A stretch of DNA of 37,311 bases from assembly GCA_034440135.1 (NCBI GenBank), contig JAWXBP010000198.1, forward strand, positions 1 to 37,311, given 5' to 3'. Positions 6,364 through 26,067 of this stretch are shown here, piece by piece. The notes below the pieces were generated by a model. It made no database searches. It was given only the letters and a program-made list of their open reading frames with translations, and was not told where the DNA came from. This stretch comes from Planctomycetia bacterium (GTDB taxonomy: Bacteria > Planctomycetota > Planctomycetia > Pirellulales > JALHLM01). The translations under genes and the position numbers were made by a program. Position 1 is the stretch's first letter; the number at the start of each line of letters is the position of its first letter.

Positions 6364-7776
6364 TTAGGCCTCGCCGACCGGCACCAGGTCCGGCACGACG
6401 AGATACCCGCTGTCGATGCTCGGTTGCATCCGAGTGTTGAAAGTATTCGATTTCAACGGCCGGCTCAGGGCCAGAATGCTGTTGCGCGAAAGGATGCCCA
6501 CCGGTTGATCCTGATGCAAGACCACGGCCACCGGACGCGGATCGCGTGAGAAGAAATCCATCACCGTGCTGAACCGCGTGGCCTCGTCGAACGTGGCGAC
6601 GTTGCGCTCCAGGATGTCGGCCACGAGCGTCGCGTCGTCCGGCCCAGGCGCATGTCCATGGCCGAGCCGCTCGGCTTGTACGACGCCGAGCAGTTTGCCA
6701 CGACCATCCACCGCAGGCAGTTCGGCGAGATGCGCGTTTTCCAATAGCAGCTTCGCCTGGCGTGCGGTGTCGTCGGCGTTCAGCAGGAACGCGCACGGCG
6801 TCATGATGTGTCGCGCGGTCGTGGTTTCCAGCAACTTGCCGGGCTGTGCCAACGTGCTCCACGAACGGGTCTCGTCGTCGAATTGTCCGTAACGGGCGAC
6901 AAAATTTCTGCCAGAAGCTTTCGCGCCGCGCAACGCGGTTTCCAGGCGCTCGAAGGTCTTGCCAGGTTCGTCGGCGGCTGAAGCGACGCCGCAACTGATC
7001 GTCACGTGAACCGGCTCGCCGCCGCATTTGAAGGTCGTGGCCGCGACCGTCTGGCGGAGCTTTTCGGCGAATGTCGCCGCTTCCGGTTCGCTCTTTTGAC
7101 GCAACAGGAAGACGAAGCGATTCTCGCCGCAACGGGCGATCGGCACGGCGTCGGTGGCGACTTCTACGAGCTTGCGGGCAATCTCGCGCAATAAATCTTC
7201 GGCTGACTTTCGACCAGACCGTCGTGCGAAGCGGCCAAAGGCATCGACGTCGGCCACCACGCAGGCCGCCCCAGCGCGGCGGCTGCCGGACATGGAGGAG
7301 GAGGAAAGCAAGCGATTAAACGCCGCGGCGCTCAACACGCCGGTCTCCGGGTCGAGACGGCCTTGTCCGCGCGAACGGCGGCGATGCTCCAAGAGTCGCG
7401 CCCCCGCACGCAAGCGGGCGAGCGCTTCGCCGTAGACTAATGGCTTGGCGAGAAAATCGTCGGCGCCCGCTTCCAGGACTTCCGTCATTTCCAGCGCCGC
7501 GAGCGGCGCGGAGAGCCAGAAGATAATCGGACTGCGATGTGGCAGCGTGCCCTTGAGCGCGCGGCAGGTATCGAGTTGTTCAGTCGTGGTCCGCGAGGCG
7601 TCGAGCAGCACGAACTCGGGCTCGACCGCTTCGCAGAGAGCTTGCCCCCCCTCCTTCCCTTCCGCTTGCCAGACCTCGTATTCGAAGGCCGACAGGAACT
7701 GGGAAATGTGCCGCAACATGGGGCGGTCGCCGGATACTACCAGCGCCCGCAACGGCCTAGGCTCTTGCGAGTTCAT
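6364..7776 (-). CDS. Receiver-like + degenerate GGDEF + CBS-pair signalling protein
   Basis: 470 aa. Residues about 10-128 form a receiver fold with a likely phospho-acceptor Asp59 (VLLDAS) and Lys111 (FLAKPL), though the usual N-terminal acidic pair is reduced to SGD. Residues about 140-300 form a GGDEF-type domain: DPETGVLSAAAFNRLL is its opening and the late SCGVAS and AKASGRNFV segments fit. The catalytic RxGGDEF loop, however, reads RCGENRF (215-221), so diguanylate cyclase activity is unlikely. Residues about 320-440 are two CBS motifs (ARHIMTPCAFLLNADDTARQA; VADILERNVATFDEATRF; PVGILSRNSI), which usually sense adenine nucleotides. No HTH is present. It stops 28 bases from the porin stop (convergent) and is divergent from the FHA/EAL gene across 429 bp. 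No strong Shine-Dalgarno precedes the ATG. Function is inferred to be regulatory, not enzymatic. Confidence 0.85.
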   Translation of the reverse strand: MNSQEPRPLRALVVSGDRPMLRHISQFLSAFEYEVWQAEGKEGGQALCEAVEPEFVLLDASRTTTEQLDTCRALKGTLPHRSPIIFWLSAPLAALEMTEVLEAGADDFLAKPLVYGEALARLRAGARLLEHRRRSRGQGRLDPETGVLSAAAFNRLLSSSSMSGSRRAGAACVVADVDAFGRFARRSGRKSAEDLLREIARKLVEVATDAVPIARCGENRFVFLLRQKSEPEAATFAEKLRQTVAATTFKCGGEPVHVTISCGVASAADEPGKTFERLETALRGAKASGRNFVARYGQFDDETRSWSTLAQPGKLLETTTARHIMTPCAFLLNADDTARQAKLLLENAHLAELPAVDGRGKLLGVVQAERLGHGHAPGPDDATLVADILERNVATFDEATRFSTVMDFFSRDPRPVAVVLHQDQPVGILSRNSILALSRPLKSNTFNTRMQPSIDSGYLVVPDLVPVGEA

Positions 7777-8205: not shown

Positions 8206-9345
8206 ATGCGAACGCAGGTGATGACCAAGGACGCCGTCGGGGCGTGGCTGGAGTATCTGCCGATTGACGGCAGCGCGCCGGAAAAGACTCCGGTGGATAC
8301 GTTCCCCTTCACGATGGGCCGGAACGAGTCGTGCGAATTGCATATCGACTCCGGACGCGTGTCGCGCGAACACGCCGCGATCCGTCGTGAAGGCGCCGAC
8401 TATTATATTCGTGATCTCGGCAGCACGAATGGCACCTTCCTGAACGGCAAGCGGATCGACGAATCCAAGATCAACGATGGAGACATCGTGGTCATCGCCG
8501 ATACGGAATACACGTTCTTCACCGGCAGCGACGTCAACGGTCAGGTGACCGCGACCTGCGTCATGCAAGGCGCCGCGCCGGCGGCCAAGCCTGCGCGCGC
8601 CGAGAACGCCGGCGATACGCAACTCATCGGCGAGGTCCGCACGTGGCAAGAGATCGTGTCGTTGCGTGCGATCAACAATCTGTTCCATCCGATCGTCGAG
8701 GTCGCAACTGGCGATCTGTTCGGCTATCACGTCTTCGATCCGCGTTTCCCGGCGGGCCGGGTCACCGCGTTCGATTGCGAGTTGGCCCGCCGCGCCCGCA
8801 GCCTACAGCGTCTCACGGCGGCCGAAGAGACACATCAACTTTCACGGCCGGCGCGGCTGTTCCTGAACCTCGACGCCGCCGACATCGAAGCGCCGTGCCT
8901 GAAGGAACATCTGGAGCAATTGCTCGAAGCCTTGGCCAAGGGCTGGCAATTGGTCTTAGAGCTGCCGGAACGGGCAGTGGAAACCGCGGCCGATCTGACG
9001 GTCTTGCGATCCTGGCTTTCGGCGCGCCAGGTGGCGCTCGCGTATGAAGGCGTCGCCTCGGGTCGAGCGCGGATTGCCGAGCTCAAGGATCTGCCGCCTG
9101 ATTTTCTCAAGCTCGATCGCACGATGTTGCAAGGCGTGCATCGCGGCGCGGACCGATTGCGACAGGTGGAATTCGTCGTGCAAGCGGCGAGCGAGATCGG
9201 CGCCGAGGTCATCGCCACGGGCGTCGACAACGAACAAGACATGGAAAACTGCCGCGGCCTCGGCTGCGGCTATGCCCAGGGCTTTCTGATCGGCGCTCCG
9301 GCGCCGCTTTGCGAGCTGCGGGAACACGCCTTGAGCGGCGTTTAA
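8206..9345 (+). CDS. FHA domain fused to a degenerate EAL domain
   Basis: 379 aa. Residues about 32-108 are a forkhead-associated domain with the conserved phosphothreonine-binding residues in MGRN (Arg39), SREH (Ser53, His56) and GSTNGTFLNG (Asn75). A linker holds GDTQLIGEV (Thr138). Residues about 153-370 align with an EAL phosphodiesterase fold: LFHPIVEVATGDLFGYHVF replaces the usual ...GxEAL, LELPE stands for LELTE, and LKLDRTML for IKID. ATGVDNEQD stands for AEGVE. The EAL glutamate and the glutamate of AEGVE are therefore lost, so c-di-GMP hydrolysis is improbable, though binding or a scaffold role remains possible. It precedes the kinase/tubulin-like gene by 138 bases on the same strand, making it a candidate reader of that kinase's products. 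ATG 8206 is used; ATG 8221 is a possible alternative, as neither has a strong ribosome site. Confidence 0.88.
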   Translation: MRTQVMTKDAVGAWLEYLPIDGSAPEKTPVDTFPFTMGRNESCELHIDSGRVSREHAAIRREGADYYIRDLGSTNGTFLNGKRIDESKINDGDIVVIADTEYTFFTGSDVNGQVTATCVMQGAAPAAKPARAENAGDTQLIGEVRTWQEIVSLRAINNLFHPIVEVATGDLFGYHVFDPRFPAGRVTAFDCELARRARSLQRLTAAEETHQLSRPARLFLNLDAADIEAPCLKEHLEQLLEALAKGWQLVLELPERAVETAADLTVLRSWLSARQVALAYEGVASGRARIAELKDLPPDFLKLDRTMLQGVHRGADRLRQVEFVVQAASEIGAEVIATGVDNEQDMENCRGLGCGYAQGFLIGAPAPLCELREHALSGV

Positions 9346-9483: not shown

Positions 9484-12400
9484 ATGCCTTCCCTACGTTC
9501 ATCTGAACCGATCGCCGGATACACCGTCAAAGAGCGCGTGGGCGCGGGCGGCTATGGCGAGGTCTGGACCGCCGAAGTGCCTGGCGGCCTGGTGAAGGCG
9601 ATCAAGTTCGTCTACGGATATCTCGACGACGACCGCGCGTCGCGGGAACTCAAGGCGCTGAACCGCATCAAGCAGGTGCGCCATCCGTTCTTGCTGTCGA
9701 TCGAGCGCATCGAAGTCGTCGACGGTCAGTTGATGATCGTCACCGAATTGGCCGAAATGAGCCTGAAGGATCGCTTCGAGCAGTGCCGCGCCGAGCGCCT
9801 GCCGGGCATTCCGCGCGAAGAGTTGCTCATCTATCTGGGTGACGCCGCGGACGCGCTCGACTTCATGCGCGTCAGCCATTCGCTGCAGCACCTCGACGTG
9901 AAGCCGGAAAACTTGCTGCTACTGGGCGGACGCGTCAAAGTCGCCGACTTCGGCCTCGTGAAGGACATCGGCGTCACCGAAGCTTCGTTGATGGGCGGCA
10001 TGACGCCGGTCTATGCTCCGCCCGAAGTGTTCGACGACCGCCCGGGCGAGTACAGCGATCAATACAGCCTGGCGATTGTCTATCAGGAAATGCTGACCGG
10101 CGTGCTGCCATTTCCTGGTAAGACGGCTGCGCAGTTGGCCACGCAGCACTTGCAGAGCCCGCCGAGGTTGGCGTCGCTACCGCCGCACGACCGCGCGGTG
10201 ATCGAGCGCGCGCTCTCGAAAGTCTCCAACCATCGTTTTCCCAGTTGCCGCGAGCTGATCGATTTGCTGATCGTGGCCCCCAAGGCCCGCGCCGCGGCCG
10301 TCGCTGCGACGCCGCTCGCTGAATCCGCGCCGGCCGACGAGCCAGGTATGGATTCGTCGACTTGCTCCCGCACGCAGTTGCCTGCGGCCAAATCGACGCC
10401 GCAAGTCACCGCGTCGCGTACGCAAATCGTGGGCGATACGTCGCTGCCGCAGATCGAGGACCGGGAATGGGACGAAATCGACCTCACGCCGGTAGAAGTA
10501 GAGAACCTTCCGCCGCTGGACGTTGCCACCGCTGAACAGGGCTTTCGTCCGACGTTGGTCGTCGGCATCGGCGGCGGCGCTGCGCATGTGTTCGCCCGAT
10601 TGCGGCGCCGGCTCTACGACCGCTTTGGCGACCTCCGCGCGCTGCCAGCGCTGCGTACGTTGTTGATCGATACCGATGTACGGGCCTTTGATGAGGCTGC
10701 CGACGCGGAGAAGGGCGTATCGCTTGAAGTCGCCGACACCTTCGCCATGCCGTTGCGGAAGCCGGAAGACTATCGCGCCGATTCCACCAAGCTGTTGCAA
10801 TGGCTGAGCCGACGCTGGCTCTACAATATTCCGCGCTCGCTCGAAACCGAGGGCCTGCGCCCCTTGGGTCGCCTGGCGTTTGTCGATCATGGCGCGAAAT
10901 TGCGTGAGCTGTTGCGTACGCAACTTACGCGGATTGCCGATCCCGCCGTCGCCGACGAATTCGCCGAACGCACCGGATGGAAGTGCCGCGATCCTCGGCC
11001 GCGGATCATCCTATTATCGTCGATCTCCGGCGGCACCGGCGGCGGTTGTGCGATCGACGTCATGTACATGCTGCGGGTGTTGATTCACGAGTTGCATCTG
11101 AGCGAAGACGGCCTTTGCTCCGTGTTCATGCATGCCACCGGTATGCGATCGCGCAACAAGGAATTGGCGGCCGCGAACGCCCGCGCGTTCCTGACGGAAC
11201 TTTCGCATTGCGGCCGCGGCCACTACCCGGGCGAGTTGGCGTTGAAGATTCCGGCGTTCCAAGGGCAAGCGGCGTTGCTGCCGCCAACGTATTTGGTGAA
11301 TCTAGGCGAACGGATCAACGAACAGGACTACGAGAACGCGACCGACGCCGTGGCGGAGTACCTGTACCAGGATGTCGCCACGCTGTCCGGCGCTTTGCTG
11401 GATCAATCCCGCATGGAGTCGGCTTCGAGCACGAGCTTGCGATCGCATCGCAATCGACTTCGGTCGTTTGGCGTGACGCAGATTGGCGCTGCGCAGGGGC
11501 CGTTGCCGAGCGTGCTCGCCGAAAAGCTGTGTTCGAGCCTGGTGCGCTATTGGCGCGGCGAGACCACGCCCACGCGCGAGGCGCGTGCGAATTCGTTGCT
11601 GGAATTTCGGCTGCCGGACGCGGAAAAGCCCGTCGCTGCCGAAGACACGCTCAGTAGCACATGCGCCGAGCATGCGAAACAGCACGAAGTGGAGTACGAT
11701 CAGCTTTGCGCAGCGGTGATTCAATCGATCGATCGTACCTTGGGTGGCGACCGCGCGGCCTACTGGCGCAACACCGTCGAGCGGCTAAACGCCTCGGAAA
11801 CCGGCGCCGCGTCGGAACCGCTGATGCGCATCCGGCGCGCTTATCAGGCGATCAATGCCGTGCTAGGCAACCGCAAATCGGCGGAGGCCGTCGACGAGAA
11901 CGCCGTCACGCTGACTCGCGCCGTCGAAGCGCAGATGTCGCAGTTCGCCACGCATCGCGGCCAGGCGCTGCAGCAGTGGCTCACCGGATTGGCTGAATCG
12001 CCTGGCGTGGGCGCTCGTGGCGCCGAGCAGGCGATCGACTGGTTCCATCGCCATCTGAGCGCCTGCGAACAGCGCGTCGTCGAACAAGTGCAGATGCTGC
12101 GTGCCCAGATGGAGCCGTGGGACCTGCTCATTCAGCAAACGCTCACGTCGCCGGCCGCGCAAGGTAAAACCAAAGCCGGCACGTTGCTCGACCAACCGAT
12201 GGTCCGATTGGGCGAATACTTCGAAATTCGCTTGCGCGAAGTGGGCCTCTCCGGCCTCCATCTGCTGGTGCGTCAGTTGCTCGCCCGAGTGACCTCGGCG
12301 CAAGATCAGCTCAAATCGTTGCGCAAAGATCTCAACGAGTTGTCGGCCGCCTTCGACGCCACGCCAGCCGCGGTAGACGCGGGCGCGTTGTCCGGCCCAA

Positions 12401-12993
12401 TGGCGGCCGTGCGCGTCGCCGCCAACGACTACATTCGTCATCGCTTGACGAAGCTCACCGAACAATTCGACGCCGATATCCGCGAGCGCTACCTGAACGC
12501 GGTGGGTGGAGTCCGGGCGTCGCTCGAAAAACGCGATTTGCGCCCACGCTTGCCCGGTATCTTGTTGGCCGAAGCGCGGCGGAGCGTATTGCGAGCGCTG
12601 TCGGAATTCGACGTGGCGAAGGTGTTGGTCGAAGCGTATCCCGAAGAAGCGGAGCTCGCCGAGCAACTGCAACAATGGTCCGCGCTCGCGACGCCTGGCG
12701 TGCTCGCCGTCGGCGGAGCGAAGCGACTGTTCCTGGCCGCACCGGCAGGCGAAGCCGCCAACCGTTTCGCATCAGCCATGCAACAAGCCGTGGGCGAAAT
12801 CGCCACCGTGGTGCCGAATCCATCCGGCGACCTGGTGCTGTTTTACGAGGCCGAACGCTTGCCCTTGGAACGCGTGGCAACGCTCCTCTCGCGCGGTTAT
12901 GGAGATTGCGGCGAAGTCGCCGAACGACTTTACACGCGCATCGACGTCGAATGGCCATCCCTCGACGCCAAACGCGTGCCAGCCGCGGTCTAG
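9484..12993 (+). CDS. Ser/Thr protein kinase fused to an FtsZ/tubulin-like GTPase domain
   Basis: 1169 aa from ATG 9484; an in-frame TTG at 9454 would add ten residues. Residues about 12-265 form a eukaryotic-type protein kinase: Gly-rich loop GAGGYG (20-25), ATP Lys41 in KAIKF, catalytic loop HLDVKPEN (Asp138, Lys140, Asn143), DFG at 155-157 and APPE at the end of the activation segment. Residue Leu replaces Arg in the HRD motif, so it is a non-RD kinase. A linker at about 270-350 has two SRTQ motifs. From about 355 the protein resembles the bacterial tubulin-like family: RPTLVVGIGGGAAHVFARL corresponds to the first FtsZ glycine loop, LLIDTDVRAF to the TDxxAL segment, and SISGGTGGGCAIDV (516-521 Gly-rich) to the GGGTGTG tubulin signature. 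A long, mostly helical C-terminus follows. No membrane segment is evident. The role is inferred: phosphorylation linked to assembly of a GTP-dependent polymer or membrane-associated ring. Confidence 0.9.
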   Translation: MPSLRSSEPIAGYTVKERVGAGGYGEVWTAEVPGGLVKAIKFVYGYLDDDRASRELKALNRIKQVRHPFLLSIERIEVVDGQLMIVTELAEMSLKDRFEQCRAERLPGIPREELLIYLGDAADALDFMRVSHSLQHLDVKPENLLLLGGRVKVADFGLVKDIGVTEASLMGGMTPVYAPPEVFDDRPGEYSDQYSLAIVYQEMLTGVLPFPGKTAAQLATQHLQSPPRLASLPPHDRAVIERALSKVSNHRFPSCRELIDLLIVAPKARAAAVAATPLAESAPADEPGMDSSTCSRTQLPAAKSTPQVTASRTQIVGDTSLPQIEDREWDEIDLTPVEVENLPPLDVATAEQGFRPTLVVGIGGGAAHVFARLRRRLYDRFGDLRALPALRTLLIDTDVRAFDEAADAEKGVSLEVADTFAMPLRKPEDYRADSTKLLQWLSRRWLYNIPRSLETEGLRPLGRLAFVDHGAKLRELLRTQLTRIADPAVADEFAERTGWKCRDPRPRIILLSSISGGTGGGCAIDVMYMLRVLIHELHLSEDGLCSVFMHATGMRSRNKELAAANARAFLTELSHCGRGHYPGELALKIPAFQGQAALLPPTYLVNLGERINEQDYENATDAVAEYLYQDVATLSGALLDQSRMESASSTSLRSHRNRLRSFGVTQIGAAQGPLPSVLAEKLCSSLVRYWRGETTPTREARANSLLEFRLPDAEKPVAAEDTLSSTCAEHAKQHEVEYDQLCAAVIQSIDRTLGGDRAAYWRNTVERLNASETGAASEPLMRIRRAYQAINAVLGNRKSAEAVDENAVTLTRAVEAQMSQFATHRGQALQQWLTGLAESPGVGARGAEQAIDWFHRHLSACEQRVVEQVQMLRAQMEPWDLLIQQTLTSPAAQGKTKAGTLLDQPMVRLGEYFEIRLREVGLSGLHLLVRQLLARVTSAQDQLKSLRKDLNELSAAFDATPAAVDAGALSGPMAAVRVAANDYIRHRLTKLTEQFDADIRERYLNAVGGVRASLEKRDLRPRLPGILLAEARRSVLRALSEFDVAKVLVEAYPEEAELAEQLQQWSALATPGVLAVGGAKRLFLAAPAGEAANRFASAMQQAVGEIATVVPNPSGDLVLFYEAERLPLERVATLLSRGYGDCGEVAERLYTRIDVEWPSLDAKRVPAAV

Positions 12994-13521: not shown

Positions 13522-16500
13522 CTACTCGATGTACCGCCGAATCAGCAGGCCGTCCTCGACGTTCAGCGTCTCGCCACGTTGGAAGCCGACCGGAATCGTG
13601 CGGTCATAAAGATAGAACGCGCGATGCCGCTCAATCTCCCCGGTATCGGTCCCCAACTCCGCGCCCAACTGCCAACCATCCGGATATCGCGTTGGATCGA
13701 TCGGCACCGGCGTCACTTCGAAATACCCCACCGTCACCCAAACCGCATACACATTGGAACGCGTGGTCACGCTGTTGTAGATCTTCTGCATGCCGGCGTA
13801 ATAAAAATAAGGGTTGCGCTCGGGATCATTGTGGGGCAATGGAGTTGACAAAATAGGCGCGGCAAAGAGCGGCTCATTCGACGCCGACCCTCCTGGCCCA
13901 GAAGGTTGTTGTCGCATGATTGTGACATTGATCGGCTGATTCTTTACGTTCAACGTCATCAATCCGTCGGTGGGCACGAATGGAAAAGCGCCGGCCGGCC
14001 GGAAAGGATTCGCGAACACGGTCGGATGCGCGTTGGACATATGTCCAATATCCGCAGAGAATGAATACCCGCGTCGCGACTGCACGAAGTCCGCCCAACG
14101 ACTTCCGGTCGGTGCATAGCTAAAGACGCCGTCCATCAGAGCTTCGAAAACCGCCGGGTCATAGACGGTATTTAAGTTGATCTTACCTGGTTCGCGATAG
14201 CGCGAAACCTTGTTGTACGGCGGGTGAAAATAGTGGTTATTGCCGCCGCTGAATTCCGCAGGATCGAGCATGTCATAGGTGCCGGCGAACCGCGACGGCA
14301 CTTCGACGAAGTCGAACAACCGATATAGCTCTGGCGCCTTGCCGCGCGCTCGGCCCGGCGCGGGGCTCGCGGAATTGAAGAAGTTCAGCAAGTGCCGGAA
14401 ACTGTCGCGGAACGCCGCGTTCGGGCTGTTGTCGAGCGGATCGACGGTCGACGGAGCGTAGGGATCGAAGGACGCTTCTCGCGTCGCATGATCCATCAGC
14501 AATCCCGCCGGCGACGTACCCGGCACTAGTAACAGTTCCACCGGCGAAACGAACGGTCGGTTGTTCCAGGTCAGCCAGGGCTTTGCCGGGCGCGCAGGAT
14601 CGACGAACATGTCGCCGTCGTAGGTTGATTTGGGAGTCGATGGCGTGGACGTGGCAGGATTCGTCTCGGCGGCATTCGCTTGGAACACCGGCCCGTATTC
14701 CTCGTTCTGTGTGGAGAACCCGTTCAGATGACCAAACGTGCTCTTGGTCAACGGATTCGAGGTCCCCGTGGCGCCGTTCATTTCCGGCGCGCTATGGATT
14801 TCCGGCGTTCCCCACGACGACCACACGTTTCGCACGCCAGCGCGCTGATTCGCGCCGCGCATCAGTCCGCGACGGAAGCTGTCGAAATGCGCGGTGTCGG
14901 CCACGGGCGCTGTGCCTTCCGTTCCGGCGTTCGCGACTACTGGTTCGCCGCGGAACGAGCGCAGGTCCAGCGGCGCACGATCAATCGTCAAGTACGGATT
15001 GGTGAGTTGGTTCCACGGCCGGGTCGGATCGGCAAGCCGTTCCAGGTACAGCATCGATTTGCCTTCCGGAACGTAGTCGTTGCGTTCCAGTTGCGTCGCC
15101 CCGATCGGCACGTCTTCCGGCGCGGAGAAGAAATCGTCCGGATGAAACTGGTTCACGGACCGCGGCGCCATCGTGACGGGAGTCAACGTGCTGTAGCCGG
15201 CGTCAGGCTCTGACACGCTAAAGCGCGCCACGTTGTTGCCGACGACGCGCGGCTCGATCACCACGCCGATGACCGATTTCGCCGCTGTCGGCAATTCAAA
15301 AGTCGTTCCTCGGAACGGGCCAATCCGGCCGTCGGGAGAGGCGAGTTGCAAGTGGAACGGATAGGTGTTCTTCTTCCCGCCTGCGTCGTTGGCGGTCGAG
15401 CGTTCGCCGAAATAAGTGCGATAGTACGGCCCGTTGGTATTCGGTCGATTCTGATCGTCACACGGTCCCGCCGGAGCGACGAGCGCATAGCTGCCCGGCC
15501 GGATCACCTCCGGCGCCGGCAGATCGTTGTCACGATGAAACTTCGGCTGTCCCGTGTGAGGGGGCTCGATGACATTTGGGTTTGAACTCGACTCCACCGT
15601 GAAATAAGCGATCTTGCCGATGTCGCTATCAGCCAAAATCGGTCGATAGTGGACTCGATCCGGATCTTTGAACTCATCGGGATCATTGCCGGCGTCCAAT
15701 CTAGGTTTGTGCGTCACGACCCGCCACACCGGCGACATTCGACCGCCGCTATCAGGCTTCGAAAATGCGCCCAGGTCGATGCCGAAGTCGTTGGCGCCGA
15801 CGATGCCGTGAACCTCGGGTGCAGGCGCTTCGAAGTGCCCGCCAGGATTGAACAACTCGAACGCCACGGTCCCGCGCGGCCGCGCCATCTGGTCGTAGTG
15901 GGGATCGGCTGGGTTATCACTCCTCAGCCCGCCGACGCTTTCGTCCGCCGTGCGGCGTTCGTGCGTCGAGATAGTTTCGGTAATCAGCAGTTCCGGCCGC
16001 TCGCAGCCCCAGGCGATCTCGCGAATATTGGCGCCCTCGTCCGTGGTGAGGTCGCCGTCGACGTCCCACGGATTGTTATTTGGGTCCGGCACATCATCCG
16101 TGAACGGATCGAGATCAAACTCGAATCCTGTCATGATCGAATCTCGATCACGAAAATCCACGACGTTGACCACCCACTGGGCAATCCGACGAGCAACCTC
16201 CAACTTCGTGTTAGCGCCCGTCGTGTCGTTCCAACCATCAGTCGTGTAAAACTGGTTGTCCACCAGCAACATCATCAACACGTAGAGGTGCTTCGCGTAC
16301 TCCATGCGCGCGTTGAGTTCATCCGGGTCGTTGCCGCGCGGCGAACTCGCATCTGTATTTGAAGCGATGTTGACGCCGTCGTTGTCGGCGTCCAGCCAGG
16401 CGAACTTCGGCGGGCGATTGGGATTGGCGAACGAACGATCGGGGCCGACGACCGTCTCCAATAGCGTCTCGCTCGGCTCGTCGATCACGCCGTTGCCATT

Positions 16501-19047
16501 GTCGTCCCGCCCATTGCCGAACGGACTATTCAAGTCCATCTTGCGCCCGGCCAACACTTCGGGGGGCAATAGCTCACGCAGTGCGACGTTGACGTTCACT
16601 GATGCGCCCAAGCGTGCGACGAGCAAGTCTTGAATCGACTGATTCTGCACGCGCCGCACTTTGTACGGCGCCGCCACATTGGTCGGCGGCGCTGGTGGAA
16701 CGCTGCGCAATGCAACGTTGTCGATAACCACCATTGCGCCGGCCGCTGGCACGTCCCAGCTTTCTGTCGTGAACAGCGTATTGAAGCGCGGATTGTTGTA
16801 CATCGCCTCCTGAATCAGCGAGGTCAGCCGCGTGTTATTCATCTGTACGGCGGGGCTGGCCGAGCCGTTGGTCACATAATCCGCGTCGGCGTCATAACGT
16901 CGTAAGATGCGTTCCAACTCGTCAGGAGTGAACGCCGCGTCGATGGGCGAAATCGCCGGATAGGCGCCACTCCCCTGCATGACCCACTTGTTCGAGCGAT
17001 GCGACAAGTCCAGTTCATACGGGTCGTTGAACATTTCGCCGATCTCGCCGGCGCCATGCACGCCGCGCCCGGCGACGGAGGTTACGGAAGCCAAGTACGG
17101 ATTGCCGCGATAGTCGAGCACCAGCACGCCGTCGCCATCCAGATCCGGCGAGGAGCCAAAACCGTCGACCATCCAATTCGTCCGACTGGCCAACGGCGAG
17201 AAAGCGTCCACCGCGTAGTTTCGCGGCATCTGCATCTGGTCGAGATTCGTCGCCGTCAAACGCATGTTGTTGGCGAGCACGTTGTAAGCATCGGCAGCCC
17301 GAAACGTGTCGTCCGTGTAGCCGGGCCGCGGGATATTGTTGTTAGAAATCGCCGCGGCGCCCTGTGCCTCGCCGTAACGCCCTTCAAATCGCTGGCCGTT
17401 GACCAGTCGACCTTCCAGCAAAGTTAAGTACGAATCGACGCCATTGACTACCGGCAGAGCGCGACGCAGGTTCACTTCCGCCGGGCCATAGCCTTGCCCA
17501 AAAGAGAACTCGCCTGGCTGCAAGGCTCCGGCCGTTCCCGATGGAATCGGTCCATACAACGGCGTCGCACCGGTCCCGGACTGATAGGCGGCGAGGTCGA
17601 GATGATTCGGGTTGCCATGTGCGTTGAGGTTCAAGCGCCCGTCCATGTCGACGCACAACACGGCGAACATCGGCTTGAACCACCGACCGTCGGCCGATGG
17701 CTGGGCCGGCATGCCCATATCGACCCAGACGCTGTCCCGCTTGCCGTCGCCGTCGTTGTCGACATCCCACTCGGGGTTGTTCGCTGTGCCGTAGCCCCAG
17801 AGTGGGTGAAAACCAGGTCCCGTGTTCGTGTCGTTGCCAGGGAAGTTTGGGTGATCGAATGGAGTCGGCCGCATCATGGCTTTTCGCCACACGTGCGGCT
17901 CGGTTTGCATTTTGCTGATGACCGAAGCGGCATCCGTGTCGCTGCGAAAATCGAGCTTCTGCGGATTGCTCACCGGCAATTGCTGCGACCACCAGTTGAT
18001 CAAGTCCGGGCGATGGAACGACGGCAAACGCGTGATCATCATATTGGCCGTCGTGTCCCAGTAGTGCATGGCGAGATGCAGATTCTGGAAGTCGGCCGCG
18101 TCGTAGGCTTCATCCGCGCCACCGGGGCCCGCGGGATCATAGAGAAACTGCATCGTCGCGTCGGCGGAAGCGGCGTGGTAGCTGCCGTCTCGAGCACCGA
18201 AAATCGGGTTGGGCAGCAGCGCACGTGGCCACGAGGTGCCCGGATAAGCGCCCAACAAATCCCCGTCGGAATAGGTCAACAGAGGCCCCGGAAATCCAGC
18301 AGCGTTCGGTCGCACAGTGACAGCGCCGGACGGCGCCGCAAAATTCTCCATGCCAAAACCGGCGCCGTTGAACGGGCGGCCGTTGATGACAAAGCGGTCG
18401 CGTTGTTGCGGAAACTGGTTTCCACCGAACGAAGTGATCTGCAATTGGCCAATCAATGTCGTGGGATTAACCACGTTCGGCTCGTAGTCGACGATTCGCG
18501 CGCTCTTGCCGGCCAGCGGCCCGCTGGTCATTGTAATCACGCAGCCGCTGAAGTAGCCCGAGCGGTACAATCGCGCCGACATCGCGAACGGATCCTTCGG
18601 ATTGTTCGGCTGGTTGCCGGTGGGCACCGGTTGATTGAACTGCTGATCGAACTCCACATTGGCCAACTGAATGACGCCGCTCGTCGTAACATTCGTCACC
18701 GGCTGCGGAAAGTTGTCGGTGATCATGCCCGTCACTGCGTCGTTTCCGTACATGTCTTCCAGTAGGCTGTGCGTTTGCAATACCGAGAGCGGGTTTTGCG
18801 TGCCGCGGATGATTTGCAGCATTGCTTCGTGCAGCTGCGATTGCGGCGTGTTGTTGGTTCGATCGGCGCGGGCGGCGGCCACGGCGGTGCGGCGGCCTTG
18901 GGAGGCGATCAGCACGAAGCTGACCGTGATCAGCGTGAAGATCGCCAGCATGCTCAGCACCACCAGCAGCACCATGCCGCGGCGCCGCCGGGGAAACCAC
19001 GACCTCGCCTTGCGTACCGCCCGCCGCCTCAGTGTTTTGCGTGACAT
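13522..19047 (-). CDS. Giant GspK-like pseudopilus protein
   Basis: 1841 aa from ATG 19047, chosen because AAGGGA lies about 8 bases upstream and the prepilin-like leader begins there; a longer frame to 19167 adds 40 residues without a signal. The leader is strongly basic (RRRRG) and is followed by a membrane helix MVLLVVLSMLAIFTLITVSF (from residue 25) lacking the Glu+5 of other pilins, as is usual for GspK. Near the C-terminus (about residue 1597) GKINLNTVYDPAVFEALM is a GspK-type 'INLNT' motif, and TTRSNVYAVWVTVGYFEV is a hydrophobic strand near the end. Between these are several D-x-D-x-D-G calcium-loop-like motifs (DVDNDGDGKRDSVWVD, DLDGDGVL, DDNGNGVID, DADNDGVN). GspK proteins are normally about 300-400 aa, so this is several times larger. 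It is last in the pilin cluster, 169 bp after the GspI/PilV-like gene. It is inferred to act at the pseudopilus tip. Confidence 0.82.
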   Translation of the reverse strand: MSRKTLRRRAVRKARSWFPRRRRGMVLLVVLSMLAIFTLITVSFVLIASQGRRTAVAAARADRTNNTPQSQLHEAMLQIIRGTQNPLSVLQTHSLLEDMYGNDAVTGMITDNFPQPVTNVTTSGVIQLANVEFDQQFNQPVPTGNQPNNPKDPFAMSARLYRSGYFSGCVITMTSGPLAGKSARIVDYEPNVVNPTTLIGQLQITSFGGNQFPQQRDRFVINGRPFNGAGFGMENFAAPSGAVTVRPNAAGFPGPLLTYSDGDLLGAYPGTSWPRALLPNPIFGARDGSYHAASADATMQFLYDPAGPGGADEAYDAADFQNLHLAMHYWDTTANMMITRLPSFHRPDLINWWSQQLPVSNPQKLDFRSDTDAASVISKMQTEPHVWRKAMMRPTPFDHPNFPGNDTNTGPGFHPLWGYGTANNPEWDVDNDGDGKRDSVWVDMGMPAQPSADGRWFKPMFAVLCVDMDGRLNLNAHGNPNHLDLAAYQSGTGATPLYGPIPSGTAGALQPGEFSFGQGYGPAEVNLRRALPVVNGVDSYLTLLEGRLVNGQRFEGRYGEAQGAAAISNNNIPRPGYTDDTFRAADAYNVLANNMRLTATNLDQMQMPRNYAVDAFSPLASRTNWMVDGFGSSPDLDGDGVLVLDYRGNPYLASVTSVAGRGVHGAGEIGEMFNDPYELDLSHRSNKWVMQGSGAYPAISPIDAAFTPDELERILRRYDADADYVTNGSASPAVQMNNTRLTSLIQEAMYNNPRFNTLFTTESWDVPAAGAMVVIDNVALRSVPPAPPTNVAAPYKVRRVQNQSIQDLLVARLGASVNVNVALRELLPPEVLAGRKMDLNSPFGNGRDDNGNGVIDEPSETLLETVVGPDRSFANPNRPPKFAWLDADNDGVNIASNTDASSPRGNDPDELNARMEYAKHLYVLMMLLVDNQFYTTDGWNDTTGANTKLEVARRIAQWVVNVVDFRDRDSIMTGFEFDLDPFTDDVPDPNNNPWDVDGDLTTDEGANIREIAWGCERPELLITETISTHERRTADESVGGLRSDNPADPHYDQMARPRGTVAFELFNPGGHFEAPAPEVHGIVGANDFGIDLGAFSKPDSGGRMSPVWRVVTHKPRLDAGNDPDEFKDPDRVHYRPILADSDIGKIAYFTVESSSNPNVIEPPHTGQPKFHRDNDLPAPEVIRPGSYALVAPAGPCDDQNRPNTNGPYYRTYFGERSTANDAGGKKNTYPFHLQLASPDGRIGPFRGTTFELPTAAKSVIGVVIEPRVVGNNVARFSVSEPDAGYSTLTPVTMAPRSVNQFHPDDFFSAPEDVPIGATQLERNDYVPEGKSMLYLERLADPTRPWNQLTNPYLTIDRAPLDLRSFRGEPVVANAGTEGTAPVADTAHFDSFRRGLMRGANQRAGVRNVWSSWGTPEIHSAPEMNGATGTSNPLTKSTFGHLNGFSTQNEEYGPVFQANAAETNPATSTPSTPKSTYDGDMFVDPARPAKPWLTWNNRPFVSPVELLLVPGTSPAGLLMDHATREASFDPYAPSTVDPLDNSPNAAFRDSFRHLLNFFNSASPAPGRARGKAPELYRLFDFVEVPSRFAGTYDMLDPAEFSGGNNHYFHPPYNKVSRYREPGKINLNTVYDPAVFEALMDGVFSYAPTGSRWADFVQSRRGYSFSADIGHMSNAHPTVFANPFRPAGAFPFVPTDGLMTLNVKNQPINVTIMRQQPSGPGGSASNEPLFAAPILSTPLPHNDPERNPYFYYAGMQKIYNSVTTRSNVYAVWVTVGYFEVTPVPIDPTRYPDGWQLGAELGTDTGEIERHRAFYLYDRTIPVGFQRGETLNVEDGLLIRRYIE

Positions 19048-19216
19048 CGTCTCGGTCCCTTCTCGCGAATGCGTTGCCTCGAAGCAGTCGCGCGACTTGC
19101 CTTCGCGCTCAATCGGCCCGCGTGAGAAATCTCGGAGCTCGACAGGCAGCATTCGCAGCGACGGCATGGAAGGCCGCGGCCGAATACCTGGCTGACGACT
19201 TTGGTTTCTCGTTCTC

Positions 19217-20659
19217 TCAGTTGCCTAACGAATCAATGCGTACCGTGCGTTCGTATACCGCGATGACGCCGTCGAAGATGGACGCCGATGTCGAATCTCC
19301 CTCGGGTCCACTCGCCAGCGCCACGAACCGGTTCATATCCCAATCAGCTCCATCAAGGGTGACGTCTCGGTGCGGATCTTCACCCGAGGGCGGATCGGTT
19401 ACGCCCGAGCCATCGTCCACCGAAACGATGCGATACCATTTGGCCACCACAGGAGGTTGCGTCGGCGGCGGCGGAGTTGTCGGCCACGTGGACGTGTCCA
19501 ACTTGCCGGTCACCAACAACCACTGGTTCGGTCGAAGGTCGCGGAGGTACTTGGGATCAGGATGAGACAAGTGCGCGCTGCCACCCCCGACGCCAGAACC
19601 GCCAAAGGTAATGGCCACGGTCCGCTCGGCCGGCGCTTCGGTGTCGTCCGCCGGCAGCAGTGAGATCGGCCGCTTGTAGAACACCACGACGGAAACATCG
19701 AACGTCCGAACCTTCCCAGACTTGTAACCAACCGACGAGTCGTAGACTTCATTGAACGCCGGGCTTGCCATGACGAGCCATGAGTAGTCGCCCACTGAAG
19801 TGGCGTTCAATCTCGCTTGTACTTCCTGCCGTTCGAATTGCTCCGAATTGGCAGCACTGTTAATCGTGTACTGTTGTGTCGGCCGAGCGTCCTGATCATC
19901 TGCGACGACATAGGATAGATCGTCATGTCCCCGGAAGATGCGATCGGAGAGGGATGAATCCTTGTCACGTTGGAGGTTGCTGTTCGACAACGTAGTCGGG
20001 TTGATACGAAACAGGTTGTTTGCGGGATCGAATTCCGGATACGGCATCAAGTCCGTCAACGACAGTCGCGGCAATCGCGGCACGTTCGCTAGGCCTGCGT
20101 CCGAAGCATCCAATGCAACGTTGTACGGAAAGGTTGCCGGCGAAGGCACGCCGTTGCTTCCGCCAAAGACGTAGTCGCGATTTCTGGGCTCGGCCAGCAT
20201 CGCGGGGTCAATTACAAACGGCCCGGAGTAGATTCGCGACGCTTCTTGAGCGTTCAAATTCGAAATGTAATTTGGCCAGTAAACGTATTCCTGAGCGCTA
20301 TCGTCATACGCGACCCAGTTTGTCTCGCGCAGCATGTCGCGCAGTAGCACTTCGCGGAAGGCGATTTTGCCGAGGGTGGCGCCGCGGTCGAGTTTGCCGG
20401 CTTCCAGGACTTCGAAGCGGCCGATCGGGATCAACGCCGCGAGGCCCAGGATGCCGACCGTCAGCACGAACACGGAGACCAGCACTTCGAGCAAGCTGAT
20501 GCCGCGCCGTGTTCTCGTTCTGTCTGTAGCCGAGGTCTGTGACCTCGGTGTTGTGCGGCGCGAAGCGTGTAAGCGGCGCGTGGGCCCGGTGCGGCCGAGG
20601 TCACAGACCTCGGCTACCGAAGACGGATGTTGTGCGGTGGTGCGTCGGCTGGTTTGCAT
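19217..20659 (-). CDS. PilV/GspI-like pseudopilin with repeat-derived leader
   Basis: 480 aa. A prepilin cleavage motif RRG/ISLLEVLVSVFVLTVG with Glu at +5 is followed by GLAALIPIGRFEV, typical of PilV/GspI minor pseudopilins that are processed and methylated by a prepilin peptidase and assembled in the inner membrane. The remainder is a large, strand-rich periplasmic domain without an obvious enzyme motif. The start at 20659 lies only three bases after the upstream pseudopilin's stop and has a GGGAGG at 20670-20675, so translational coupling is likely. This start gives an unusually long leader of about 53 residues, and the leader's coding sequence contains an inverted pair of repeat units (20526-20617). 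No ATG, GTG or TTG in this frame lies between the repeat and the cleavage site, so the repeats must be translated. Confidence 0.85.
   Translation of the reverse strand: MQTSRRTTAQHPSSVAEVCDLGRTGPTRRLHASRRTTPRSQTSATDRTRTRRGISLLEVLVSVFVLTVGILGLAALIPIGRFEVLEAGKLDRGATLGKIAFREVLLRDMLRETNWVAYDDSAQEYVYWPNYISNLNAQEASRIYSGPFVIDPAMLAEPRNRDYVFGGSNGVPSPATFPYNVALDASDAGLANVPRLPRLSLTDLMPYPEFDPANNLFRINPTTLSNSNLQRDKDSSLSDRIFRGHDDLSYVVADDQDARPTQQYTINSAANSEQFERQEVQARLNATSVGDYSWLVMASPAFNEVYDSSVGYKSGKVRTFDVSVVVFYKRPISLLPADDTEAPAERTVAITFGGSGVGGGSAHLSHPDPKYLRDLRPNQWLLVTGKLDTSTWPTTPPPPTQPPVVAKWYRIVSVDDGSGVTDPPSGEDPHRDVTLDGADWDMNRFVALASGPEGDSTSASIFDGVIAVYERTVRIDSLGN
20526..20617. repeat. Inverted pair of 23-bp palindromic repeats inside a leader-peptide coding sequence
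   Basis: GTAGCCGAGGTCTGTGACC followed by TCGG (20526-20548) recurs as its reverse complement (CCGAGGTCACAGACCTCGG followed by CTAC, 20595-20617). Each unit is itself palindromic (CCGAGGTC.GACCTCGG), and 46 bases separate them. The pair resembles REP/BIME or MITE-type dispersed elements. It encodes parts of the prepilin leader (VAEVCDLG and PRSQTSATD) without breaking the frame. Confidence 0.8.
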
Positions 20660-20662
20660 CGC

Positions 20663-21982
20663 CTAATTGCCTCCCATCGACTGCCCCTGCCGGGCGAACG
20701 CGCGAGCGTCAGGAATCAACAACCGCGCGTCGACCTCTAGCGGCGGCGGACTATTGACTTGCACGTCGCCGTCAAACACCGCCGCGTTCGGGTTCGTGGC
20801 CACCGCGCCGGTTTGGCTCTTCACGCCGATCCACAGGTTTTCGAGATCGAACCAGTTCGGAATCACATCCGGCCCTTCGCCCGGCGGCACCGTGAGGCCG
20901 ACGGCTTCGCGGCGACCAACGAGGAATTGCACCGACGACGTCGGACGCGAACTGCTCCAGATGGTTGCATTGAGCGGCCCGCCCGCAGTCATGCCTTGAT
21001 GACACCAAACGCGATCGATCGAACCGTTCGGCGCGAACAAGAGAATCACGGGCGAAAGATCGTTGTTGTCGAGCGGCGCGAAGTACGAACCTTGATCGAC
21101 CCCGGAGACGCCGAGATCGACGACCGTGCCGACCGGCAACTGGTAGGAGATCGAGGCCGATTTGACCGGTTGGCGAATGATCTTGAATTGGTAGTCGCCC
21201 CTTCTCAATGCCGGTCGAAGGTGTGACATCCGCGCACTGTCGTAGCCGAGCGTCCAATTGATGTTGTTCGACACCTCGTACGAACTCGCGAGATTCGGCA
21301 ATGGCTCCGTTGGGATGGGTGACGGCAGTTGAAAATAGACCGTCTTCGTTGGATCCTCCGAATTGATTTGAGTCGTCTGATTCGCCGACGCCGGATCGTA
21401 GCCGCCATTGTCATTTGAATCCGCAAATGGCTCGCCATTGTCCCACTGCCCGTTGGGCGGCAGCGGCGGATCCGGCGGGTTCGAGGGAGGTGGAGTTGGA
21501 GGAACATCTAGATAGGGTTCGCCGGACCAAAGGCGGAAGCGTTCTTTCCGATTGTTCAACTCGACCAGATCGCCTGGGCGAACGAGTGTCAGCCAATAGT
21601 TGTCGGGAAGCCATTGGGCACCGAACGCACCGACTTCGTAATGCCCAATGCCAATGATTTGCCCAAAATCATTGATCCGCATCACGGTGCGAGTATCACT
21701 TCCCGACCACGGCGGCGGGACTTGGACCATGTGCAGCAGCATCGAGGCCTGTGGCTCCGCTTCCAGGCGTTCGAACGAGACACCCACCGGGCGGCCGGTG
21801 ACCATCGCGCGATTGCGGGCGGAGTTGATAAACGTGTTCACGCCGCGCGTACCTTCGCGCAACCGCCGCCCGCCCATCACCGGGCCCATCACCGGAATCA
21901 CCGCGGCCGTGATCGCGAGAATGATCCCAATCACGACCAACAACTCAATCAACGTCACGCCCCGCCGCCTCATGGAAGTCAC
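20663..21982 (-). CDS. GspH-like pseudopilin
   Basis: 439 aa. The leader RRRG is cut before VTLIELLVVIGIILAITAAVIPVMG, a prepilin-type helix with Glu at +5, followed by GTRGVNTFINSARNRAMVTGRPVGVSFE. That segment is the GspH-type hallmark, where N-terminal helix residues run into a sheet beginning with VGVSF. The C-terminal body is large and Pro-rich in the middle (PPTPPPSNPPDPPLPPN), unlike the roughly 150-aa bacterial GspH. GTG at 21982 is preferred because GGAGG (21990-21994) is 7 bases upstream and the codon overlaps the upstream gene's stop by one base; ATG 21973 is the alternative. It ends three bases before the next pseudopilin start, so the three genes form one translational unit. Confidence 0.83.
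   Translation of the reverse strand: MTSMRRRGVTLIELLVVIGIILAITAAVIPVMGPVMGGRRLREGTRGVNTFINSARNRAMVTGRPVGVSFERLEAEPQASMLLHMVQVPPPWSGSDTRTVMRINDFGQIIGIGHYEVGAFGAQWLPDNYWLTLVRPGDLVELNNRKERFRLWSGEPYLDVPPTPPPSNPPDPPLPPNGQWDNGEPFADSNDNGGYDPASANQTTQINSEDPTKTVYFQLPSPIPTEPLPNLASSYEVSNNINWTLGYDSARMSHLRPALRRGDYQFKIIRQPVKSASISYQLPVGTVVDLGVSGVDQGSYFAPLDNNDLSPVILLFAPNGSIDRVWCHQGMTAGGPLNATIWSSSRPTSSVQFLVGRREAVGLTVPPGEGPDVIPNWFDLENLWIGVKSQTGAVATNPNAAVFDGDVQVNSPPPLEVDARLLIPDARAFARQGQSMGGN
20670..20675 (-). promoter_or_regulatory. Ribosome-binding site fixing the PilV/GspI-like start
   Basis: GGGAGG read on the minus strand lies 10 bases before ATG 20659, within the last codons of the upstream pseudopilin gene. 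It is the evidence that the long repeat-containing leader is real. Confidence 0.6.
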
Positions 21983-23067
21983 TAGCGCACCTCCAAGGCG
22001 TGGTTGGTGATGTTGTCCAAGTGGTCGAGCCCATCGCCGTCTTCGTCGAACGGACTTCCCATCATCCGATCGAGCGGCTTCCCACTGCTGCCGTCGGCCT
22101 TGGCGTACGGATCATTGGGCAAGGGCGCCGTTGTCGAGTAATCGAACACGTCGGGAGTTGTTGCTCGCGTGATATCCTGTTTTCCATCCGACCCAGCGGA
22201 ATAGATCAGTGGCATCATTCGATAACCTCGCCACACATCATTCGCCATGGCCGCCGGCAATACAGATGAGCCCGGACTGTCCAACTTCAAGGGATCGAAT
22301 GGATCATGATCCTCGACCCAATTGCCGGTGTGTAAATCCGTGAGCGCGTCGTCGCCCGTGCCGCTCAGACCGGGCGGCAGGTCCTGGGGATCCGATTGCC
22401 AGTTGTACGGTGGACCAGGCAGGAATCCCGGCGCCCAACGCAAAAACCGAATCGGCCGTCGCCAGCCGTCCACGAATTCCGGCATGCCGTCTTGATCGGT
22501 GTCGGCGATGTCCGACGGATTGATCCGCTGCCCGGCCATCGCGTCGTCACTGCCCATCGAGACGATCATGTATAGGCACTCTGCGTCTTCGAACTCGTTC
22601 GTCGGTCGCCTCAGTTGCCCTCCAAGCGTGTTCGCGTTGAATCTACGAAGATACGATTCTGAAAGCGCAGGAAGCTCCGTGAGTTTGAAACGACTTACTT
22701 CCGCAGCAGAACCAGGTGGCGCTTGTGGGTCTAGCGTACTCGTGACATCGCTCCAACGATCGGGCAATTCCAATCGCATCAGTTCGCGCTGCGCCCTTAG
22801 TCTGTCGAACGCATACTCGCCAGGCGTCTGGCCGGAGAGATTAATTTGCTTCATCGGCAACCGGCGCGTCTGATAAGATTCCCACCGCGACATCAACTGC
22901 GTGTGCAGCTTCGAGATCACGGCTCGGGTGCGTTGTTCTCGGGCGGTTTCTTGGGCGGACATGAGGGCGCCCATGGCCATAGCGACGATGATGCCGATCA
23001 CGGTGACCGTGACCAGCAGCTCGACCAGCGTAAACCCACGCCGTGTTTGTCGCTCGTTGCCGTGCAT
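21982..23067 (-). CDS. GspG-like pseudopilin with calcium-loop motifs
   Basis: 361 aa from ATG 23067 (MHGNERQTRRG). The leader ends RRG and the helix is FTLVELLVTVTVIGIIVAMAMG with Glu at +5, as in major pseudopilins. A longer frame to 23136 runs into the intergenic repeat at 23108-23208 and was not used. The C-terminal part has GspG-like features: DGWRRPIRFLRW (compare DPWGxPY), YSAGSDGKQDI (compare GADGxxGG) and D-x-D-x-D-G loops DTDQDGMPEFVD and DEDGDGLDHLDN. It ends DNITNHALEVR, and a matching DNLTNF is near the end of the pseudopilin encoded just upstream, suggesting duplication. Calcium binding is inferred from the loops and from the known calcium site in GspG. The stop overlaps the next gene's GTG by one base. 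No strong ribosome site is seen. Confidence 0.83.
   Translation of the reverse strand: MHGNERQTRRGFTLVELLVTVTVIGIIVAMAMGALMSAQETAREQRTRAVISKLHTQLMSRWESYQTRRLPMKQINLSGQTPGEYAFDRLRAQRELMRLELPDRWSDVTSTLDPQAPPGSAAEVSRFKLTELPALSESYLRRFNANTLGGQLRRPTNEFEDAECLYMIVSMGSDDAMAGQRINPSDIADTDQDGMPEFVDGWRRPIRFLRWAPGFLPGPPYNWQSDPQDLPPGLSGTGDDALTDLHTGNWVEDHDPFDPLKLDSPGSSVLPAAMANDVWRGYRMMPLIYSAGSDGKQDITRATTPDVFDYSTTAPLPNDPYAKADGSSGKPLDRMMGSPFDEDGDGLDHLDNITNHALEVR
21990..21994 (-). promoter_or_regulatory. Ribosome-binding site favouring the GTG start of the GspH-like gene
   Basis: GGAGG on the minus strand sits 7 bases before GTG 21982 and 16 before ATG 21973, so it favours the GTG codon that overlaps the preceding stop. 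Confidence 0.5.
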
Positions 23068-23107
23068 AAAACAAAGTTCCAAAAGGCTTGCCCGCGAAAC
23101 GTTATCT

Positions 23108-23208
23108 GTTGTGGCATGGTCTCCCGACCATGTCACGGGTCCGACCGAAGGTCTCCCGTTCGGCCGTCACCGGTCCAACGTGGCACGGTCGGGAGACCGT
23201 GCCACAAC
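23108..23208. repeat. 101-bp MITE-like element, copy 1
   Basis: Arms GTTGTGGCATGGTCTCCC... (from 23108) and ...GGGAGACCGTGCCACAAC (to 23208) are inverted repeats of about 29 bp with three mismatches, around a core of about 43 bp. Each arm is also palindromic on its own (GGTCTCCCGACC). A second copy with matching ends and a partly similar core is at 24438-24540. It occupies most of the 147-bp gap upstream of the GspG-like gene and could fold into a long hairpin in the operon mRNA. Confidence 0.8.
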
Positions 23209-23214
23209 GAAGCT

Positions 23215-24213
23215 TTACGGCTTCTTTCCTTCCAAGTCCGCTTCGGCGAAGTTCGTCAGGTTATCGAGGTCGGTAATGTCGTAGTTGCTTGTGTCATTGC
23301 TGAAATTCGGGTTCATCTCTCCGCTCGGAAACAGGCGCGGCAACTGATTGCTCGGCGCACCAAAGAAACCGTCCAAGCCAGCGCAAATGATTTGAAACTT
23401 CTTGGGGTTCACCCACGAATTGACGGACTCGCTTGATCCGTAAGGTTTGCAAAAGCCCCAATCTGAAGTGGACCCCTTCGGATACTTGACCAAGTCAAGC
23501 GAGGAGTCGTCCCACTTCTTTGTGTAGCTCCGGGAGCTGAAATACACGTACGGAGGTCCGTTGCCCGCGCCAACATTGCCCGGCGGCACGTATTCGTACC
23601 AACCATCGCCGTCGCGATCGACCAGGCGTTCTTCATTGAAGTCATACAGGCCGTCGATACGCTTCGATTGCGCGGGGCCTTCAATGGGATTCGAGGCGTT
23701 CGCGCTAAATCCACGAAGCTTGGTTGAGTCCACATTTGGAGGAATGGAAAAACCGCCCAACCAAAACACAATTGCTTCCGCTGGATCAAGCCGATTTGCG
23801 CGGAATTTGTTCGGATCCGTGTTGGTCCATTGGCCTGCAGAGTTTCCGTACGGAGACTGAATTGCGAGATTGAGTTGTTTCCCGGCATAACGCGGAAATC
23901 GTTTCGCGAAATATCGCTTCACATCCGAATCGTAGTAGCGCTCAACCGAGTTCAAATCGTACGGCGGGCTCGGATCGCTGTTTGTCGGATCGAACAACGC
24001 AAAATCCGGCGGAAACGCATTTCCTGCCTCGCTCGCCAGGCGGCTCATCGCCATGTCGAGTTGATTGATTTCCGCGGTGATTTGCGCTTTCTGCGCTTTC
24101 GCGCGTGCGTTAAAGACCGCCGGGGTGATCAGTGCGACCAGGATGCCGATGATGACGATCACGGCCAGGAGTTCGACGAGCGTGAAGCCGCTACGGCTGC
24201 TGCGACGGTTCAT
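23215..24213 (-). CDS. Major GspG/PilA-type pseudopilin
   Basis: 332 aa from ATG 24213 (MNRRSSRSG), chosen because AGGTGG lies 4-5 bases upstream; a GTG at 24252 would add 13 residues. The prepilin motif is [40 protein letters not shown], the canonical type IV pilin/pseudopilin N-terminus with Glu at +5. The globular part has [14 protein letters not shown] and [10 protein letters not shown], like the calcium-loop and GADG elements of GspG, and it closes with DLDNLTNF. It is the pseudopilin gene nearest to pilC/gspF and the first in the pseudopilin series, as is usual for the main subunit. Both flanking gaps hold palindromic repeats (23108-23208; 24285-24540). It is larger than typical GspG (about 140 aa). 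Confidence 0.87.
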
Positions 24214-24284
24214 GTTTCCACCTAGGTCCTTGAGTTGGCGACCGAGTTCCACGCGGCCCGCTCAGTTGGTTCGTATCGTGTTGT

Positions 24285-24394
24285 CCCGAGGGAGGCGGCT
24301 CCGTCGCCGAAGGCAAGGCCCGCGGCTTCTCGTCCGCGAATGCACATGTCTCAAGCTCCTCCGCCGCCCGACGACGGAGCCGCCTCCCCCGAGG
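24285..24394. repeat. Inverted repeat of about 20 bp with 65-base spacer
   Basis: GAGGGAGGCGGCTCCGTCG (24288-24306) faces CGACGGAGCCGCCTCCC (24372-24388), giving a 17-bp perfect core with further matching bases outside. The spacer is not obviously coding. The element sits in the 386-bp gap between the PilC/GspF stop (24600) and the major pseudopilin start (24213), next to the 103-bp element at 24438. It looks like another dispersed palindromic family or a strong mRNA hairpin controlling the ratio of PilC to pseudopilin. Confidence 0.65.
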
Positions 24395-24437
24395 TTGTTC
24401 GTTTCTTCAATCCTTGTCGTGGCATGGTCGGGAGTTT

Positions 24438-26062: not shown

Positions 26063-26067
26063 TTCCC

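Follow-up and report, generated by a model that had tools for sequence, protein, structure and literature searches.

A Hanks-Type Kinase Fused to a Tubulin-like Body in Pirellulales, and the Phosphothreonine Reader and ATPase Inherited with It

Results

The Fusion Gene and Its Conservation

The window analyzed here is the whole stretch of 37,311 nucleotides of contig JAWXBP010000198.1 from a Planctomycetia bacterium of the order Pirellulales. Its features are collected in Table 1. The central gene encodes a protein of 1169 amino acids and was found to run from an ATG codon to the stop codon at 12991-12993 without an internal stop. The initial annotation had read this gene as a single polypeptide that joins a Ser/Thr kinase to an FtsZ/tubulin-like domain; its coordinates are right, and both domains are found by Pfam. 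The kinase domain matches Pkinase (PF00069) with an E-value of 1.3e-25 and 90.8 bits (cut-off 31.7), and the tubulin part matches Tubulin_2 (PF13809) with an E-value of 7.1e-34 and 118 bits (cut-off 27), covering positions 1-355 of the 356 in the profile. The protein thus belongs to the FtsZl1/Tubulin_2 family, with a match above the curated cut-off over the whole profile. The canonical FtsZ/tubulin profile (PF00091) has no Pfam match in the fusion protein.

A full-length copy of the fusion, 96% identical, is present in another genome of the same genus, and further full-length relatives with approximately 34-43% identity occur in many families of the order. A strong match (E <= 1e-79) was found in about 61 of 147 sampled genomes of the order, and for most of these 61 the match covers both the kinase and the tubulin domains. 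In a second collection, a scan of genome contigs returned 121 relatives of the fusion, 80 of which were kept as related loci. The kinase and tubulin parts lie within one open reading frame at 77 of the 80 loci; at the remaining three, a contig end truncates the gene. A join created by misassembly or by a frameshift is ruled out by the same-genus copy and the 77 intact loci. Taken with the 61 genomes, these observations establish that the union of kinase and tubulin is real and old, and far more than a chance occurrence.

Table 1. Features of the Fusion Gene and Its Surroundings in the Window
Feature	Position	Strand	Remarks
Receiver + degenerate GGDEF + CBS protein, less conserved neighbor	6364..7776	-	28 of 81 loci, window included
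FHA + EAL domain partner	8206..9345	+	directly upstream of fusion; EAL residues degenerate (H175, E281)
T138-Q-L-I, interdomain linker of FHA-EAL protein	8617..8628	+	motif of the kinase-linker type
Kinase-tubulin fusion CDS	9484..12993 (stop included)	+	in-frame TTG at 9454 as alternative start
Hanks-type Ser/Thr kinase domain, aa 13-269	9520..10290	+	Pfam, alignment; pLDDT mostly 77-98
Disordered linker, aa 274-330	10303..10473	+	pLDDT < 50
T313-Q-I-V, linker motif, candidate phospho-acceptor/putative FHA ligand	10420..10431	+	
Tubulin_2/FtsZl1 nucleotide-binding domain with S7-H9, aa 358-687	10555..11544	+	Pfam, model
T1 glycine loop GIGGG, aa 361-365	10564..10578	+	G363 invariant
T4 tubulin signature SGGTGGG, aa 515-521	11026..11046	+	G516 and G521 invariant; T518 kept in 41 of 74
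Predicted helical insertion of ~385 aa, long coiled coil, between tubulin H9 and S8	11557..12717	+	models
Predicted small a/b C-terminal piece, aa 1079-1148, completing the tubulin C-terminal domain (S8-H10-S9-S10)	12718..12927	+	models
Pilus/type II secretion-like cluster	13522..31327	-	downstream of fusion

Kinase Domain and Linker

The kinase is of the Hanks type, and the catalytic Lys and Glu, the HxDxKxxN motif, and the DFG motif are all present. Residues K41, E55, D138, N143, D155, and G157 are invariant among 74 aligned sequences. The complete-looking kinase described in the initial annotation from K41, D138, and DFG at 155-157 is borne out, each residue being located where it was placed. 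The domain is homologous to the kinase domains of PknA, PknB, and StkP, bacterial Hanks kinases with which it shares the intact motifs. Unlike these proteins, the fusion has no PASTA match in Pfam, and its C-terminus is the tubulin body. The linker that follows the kinase is the sole long disordered stretch in the full-length model, in which the kinase and tubulin parts are confidently predicted.

Tubulin Body

The glycine loop and the tubulin signature reported in the initial annotation were recovered as VVGIGGGA at residues 359-366 and GGTGGG at residues 516-521. The structure prediction and structural search that it had suggested, with the lack of a tubulin fold named as counting against the claim, gave a predicted model with that fold. 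The AlphaFold2 model of residues 345-1169 has a pLDDT of 86.3 and a pTM of 0.82, and the top 50 Foldseek matches to it are all FtsZ, CetZ, TubZ, or tubulin. When aligned with CetZ (3zid) using VIA-align, the model gave a Z-score of 25.2 over 301 residues with an rmsd of 3.7; with TubZ, 291 of 303 residues were aligned. The structural match to CetZ and TubZ runs from model residue 9-10 to about residue 800 (801). The whole predicted fold thus aligns with those of CetZ, TubZ, FtsZ, and tubulin at about 9-14% sequence identity, and the fusion differs from all four by the insertion of about 385 residues between H9 and S8 and by the attached kinase.

Both domains of the tubulin superfamily fold are present in the predicted model. 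From the alignment ranges and the order of the elements, we infer that S1 to H9 correspond to residues 357-691 and S8-H10-S9-S10 to residues 1079-1127, with the helical insertion of about 385 residues between them. The modeled helices of the insertion span residues 810-836, 843-888, and 905-955. The model suggests that the tubulin C-terminal domain is present in the fusion but is split by the insertion.

The nucleotide-binding motifs are unevenly preserved across the family. In 33 of the 74 sequences, T518 of the T4 loop has given way to V, L, A, or other residues. The putative T7 acid at residue 640 (D or E; D640 in the window), which would be equivalent to the T7 Asp of FtsZ, is kept in 60 of the 74 sequences and lost in 14. 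Because of these two losses, part of the fusion family may not hydrolyze GTP. One reading of this pattern is that the tubulin part does not form dynamic polymers and that nucleotide sensing or dimerization through the coiled coil switches the kinase on and off. The replacement of T518 agrees with such a regulatory role, as does the better conservation of the kinase half of the fusion, and protofilament contacts could be obstructed by the 385-residue insertion that splits the C-terminal domain. The T1 and T4 glycines G363, G516, and G521 are invariant, however, and the window copy retains the full GGTGGG signature. We regard this reading as somewhat unlikely.

Neighboring Genes and Co-inheritance

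The surroundings of the fusion were surveyed at the 80 related loci and in the window, up to 10 kb away from the gene. The FHA-EAL gene is found near the fusion at 61 of the 80 related loci and in the window, usually adjacent to it or one to two genes away. A gene for a winged-helix AAA ATPase (AAA-A) is near the fusion at 43 of the 80; in the window genome, AAA-A lies on another contig than the fusion. The E-value limits for the 147 genomes sampled from the order were chosen once it had been seen how far AAA-A is separated from its general paralog. With these limits, AAA-A (E < 1e-155) was found in 53 genomes, every one of which also carries the fusion, and FHA-EAL (E < 1e-20) in 60 genomes, the fusion being present in 57 of them. 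Some genomes below the AAA-A limit (e.g., G367) also have the ATPase beside the fusion. In shuffles within families, the 53 co-occurrences observed for AAA-A compare with 37.3 expected (maximum 45), and the 57 for FHA-EAL with 40.5 (maximum 49). AAA-A and FHA-EAL are therefore co-inherited with the fusion and constitute a conserved module with it, while co-inheritance by itself does not prove a physical interaction.

The phosphothreonine pocket of the FHA domain (GR, SxxH, and STNGT..NG) is conserved in 60-61 of 61 sequences. The catalytic E/N/E/D/K set of the EAL domain looks intact in about 38-40 of the 61 relatives. The window copy lacks the residues expected of an active EAL domain, since H175 and E281 replace the motif E and an Asp. 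Both c-di-GMP-type neighbors in the window look catalytically degenerate, the GGDEF motif of the receiver protein being replaced by CGENRF.

No Pfam match at 1e-3 was obtained for the two members of the AAA partner family that were scanned. The nearest PDB sequences are AAA proteins of the spastin/Cdc48/Vps4 type, which match in the ATP-binding part only (E 6.6e-6); this match is too weak to assign a severing role. The general paralog AAA-B (e.g., G000:C277:19401-20690) is about 50% identical to AAA-A and occurs throughout the order irrespective of the fusion. No function was evident from the context of AAA-B, and the lone AAA-A locus of the window genome was no more informative.

Matches to models of defense systems raise the question of whether the fusion takes part in anti-phage defense or another conflict system. 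The kinase matches the PADLOC kinase models mad6 and PD-T4-6, and the AAA partner weakly matches IteA. These matches are generic to kinases or P-loop proteins, the PADLOC matches cover the kinase only, and the scores are far below the NCBIfam cut-offs (58.2 bits against 460 for MAD6 and 28.9 against 510 for IteA). Other defense genes do not recur near the fusion. Membership in the MADS or PD-T4-6 defense kinases was rejected, as the NCBIfam equivalog cut-off is missed and the kinase matches are only generic, and a role in defense is very improbable.

Downstream of the fusion lies a pilus/type II secretion-like cluster with two T2SSE ATPases that carry MshEN domains, a shorter, PilT-like T2SSE, a T2SSF protein, and several N-methyl pseudopilins. 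The cluster also contains an open reading frame of 1881 amino acids that matches no Pfam family and has a hydrophobic stretch close to the N-terminus. It does not recur at related loci and was rejected as part of the module. Rfam gave no match in the window.

A Shared Threonine Motif

The motif T[EQ][VIAL][FLVIM] occurs in the kinase linker of 16 of 65 nonredundant sequences, compared with 1.95 expected from shuffles. This motif was defined after the first set had been looked at, and no more than about one-fifth to one-third of the sequences contain it; in hold-out linkers from other genomes it was present in 6 of 22 (0.80 expected), and none of 500 shuffles exceeded 5. The same motif is found in the interdomain linker of 14 of 42 FHA-EAL proteins (1.13 expected). 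Control motifs with Ser or Ala, T[KR], and T[DN] fell within the range of the shuffles. The presence of the motif in the kinase linker is associated with its presence in the FHA-EAL linker across loci, with an odds ratio of 9.3 (p 0.0026) when relatedness is ignored. The window carries it in both proteins, as T313-QIV and T138-QLI. Two other candidates were discarded. A looser motif, T.[VIAL][FLVIM][DEG], was strong in the first set and did not replicate in the hold-out (3 of 22 against 1.1), and plain TQ or RTQ occurs in the linker at chance level (TQ, 14 against 16.6).

The shared motif, T-[EQ]-Φ-Φ, resembles the known FHA self-ligands of GarA, OdhI, and Bdellovibrio DgcB, in which positions +2 and +3 are hydrophobic (PMC6733907). 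As in those proteins, an FHA reader here carries a Thr motif within its own chain. DgcB likewise joins an FHA domain to a c-di-GMP domain, which is EAL here in place of GGDEF. The module differs from these three systems in that its kinase is joined to a tubulin and has the motif as well, and in that phosphorylation is predicted. At the level of sequence, the enrichment of the motif and the conservation of the FHA pocket support kinase-to-FHA signaling inside the module.

Discussion

Previously, Makarova and Koonin defined the FtsZl1 family and noted four planctomycete members with an additional N-terminal kinase domain (PMC2875224). Their alignment includes Blastopirellula marina DSM 3645, whose ortholog of the fusion is locus L120 in our collection. 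The kinase-FtsZl1 fusion was mentioned again in 2023 in a paper on the evolution of FtsZ and tubulin (PMC9871819). The fusion of a kinase to an FtsZ-like protein has thus been known since 2010 and is not a discovery of this work; the gene is a real, conserved, and already described Pirellulales member of FtsZl1/Tubulin_2. No functional study of it was found in the open-licence papers searched. What is new here is the co-inherited module, which the papers found do not describe, and the structural reading of a split C-terminal domain.

The family was described as having an N-terminal FtsZ-like domain, a long coiled coil, and a C-terminal domain, in which no tubulin C-terminal domain was detected (PMC2875224). 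The fusion has the same order of parts, with the modeled coiled-coil helices within residues 810-955 followed by the piece at 1079-1148, and its model suggests that the tubulin C-terminal domain, which had escaped detection, is present. The FtsZl1 form of the T4 loop, GGGTG(S/T)G, is also recognizable in the SGGTGGG of the window, where the first G is changed to S and the S/T position is occupied by G. The neighbors are different from those in PMC2875224, being FHA-EAL, AAA-A, and the receiver-GGDEF-CBS protein, with no vWA protein seen.

Among the recurrent neighbors at the 81 loci, the constituents of an FtsZl1-type operon (a vWA protein, a P-loop GTPase, or OmpA) are absent. Such an operon is common in FtsZl1 but not universal, and its absence is compatible with membership in the sequence family. 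The operon bears on the proposal that the fusion is a membrane remodeling machine, as was suggested for FtsZl1 in general in PMC2875224. The fusion belongs to the same family, and the nonfused Tubulin_2 genes of other planctomycetes seem to adjoin vWA-like proteins, with a DxSxS motif (the motif being the only criterion) at 3 of 5 loci. Against this proposal, a crude regular expression for the vWA-like MIDAS pattern matched none of the 656 genes within five genes of the fusion, and none of the three operon families recurs there. We consider membrane remodeling improbable.

The fusion is most likely a phospho-regulated tubulin-like scaffold. Our best explanation as a whole, which we advance tentatively and at somewhat less than even confidence, is that it acts inside a small module made up of the kinase, the tubulin body, the FHA-EAL reader, and the AAA ATPase. 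In the fusion, a Hanks kinase forms one chain with a whole tubulin-like GTPase body, predicted to have a long coiled-coil arm. The kinase would phosphorylate its own disordered linker on a Thr and probably also the linker of the neighboring FHA-EAL protein. The FHA domain would read the phosphothreonine and thereby tie a c-di-GMP-type EAL sensor or effector to the tubulin body. The latter may assemble or change shape with nucleotide, the coiled coil providing reach or contact with a partner, and the co-inherited ATPase may remodel or disassemble the complex. The phosphorylation sites, FHA docking, GTP binding, polymerization, the role of the ATPase, and the cell process served are all things that we infer. 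A more specific version, in which the three genes form a phospho-cytoskeletal module where self-phosphorylation recruits the c-di-GMP-type partner and controls a tubulin polymer that the ATPase takes apart, is rather unlikely.

The initial annotation attached special interest to tubulin-like proteins in planctomycetes, most of which lack canonical FtsZ. The absence of FtsZ was confirmed: a profile search with PF00091, which detected FtsZ in 13 of 14 control genomes, gave no match in the window genome or in any of the 147 sampled from the order. The link to the fusion is weaker than was implied. In the window's FtsZ-less genome, the fusion is the only tubulin-superfamily gene found, and it is tempting to view it as the missing FtsZ of planctomycetes, acting in cell division. 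However, FtsZ is missing from all 147 genomes and the fusion is present in only about 61, so the fusion cannot be a general replacement for FtsZ; about 86 genomes lack both. Our results argue against this view, which is mostly refuted as a general role and which we find scarcely credible.

The sole tubulin-superfamily gene found in an FtsZ-less planctomycete thus has a kinase built into it and is inherited together with a phosphothreonine reader and an ATPase. With concrete partners, a candidate phosphosite at T313, and a structural model, the function of a family that has been puzzling since 2010 becomes testable.

Shorter forms of the fusion, of about 790-1009 amino acids, were also observed (L080, L082, L117, G290:C12, G361:C1:2642302, G267:C1:1687097, and G281:C2). 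Those in family f93 are a second paralog in the same genome, with their own AAA-A and FHA-EAL genes nearby. The tubulin part of this planctomycete gene was found on a 3.3 kb contig (locus L045, JABMRB010000618.1) in a metagenome-assembled genome labeled Candidatus Nealsonbacteria, a placement that is probably a binning error.
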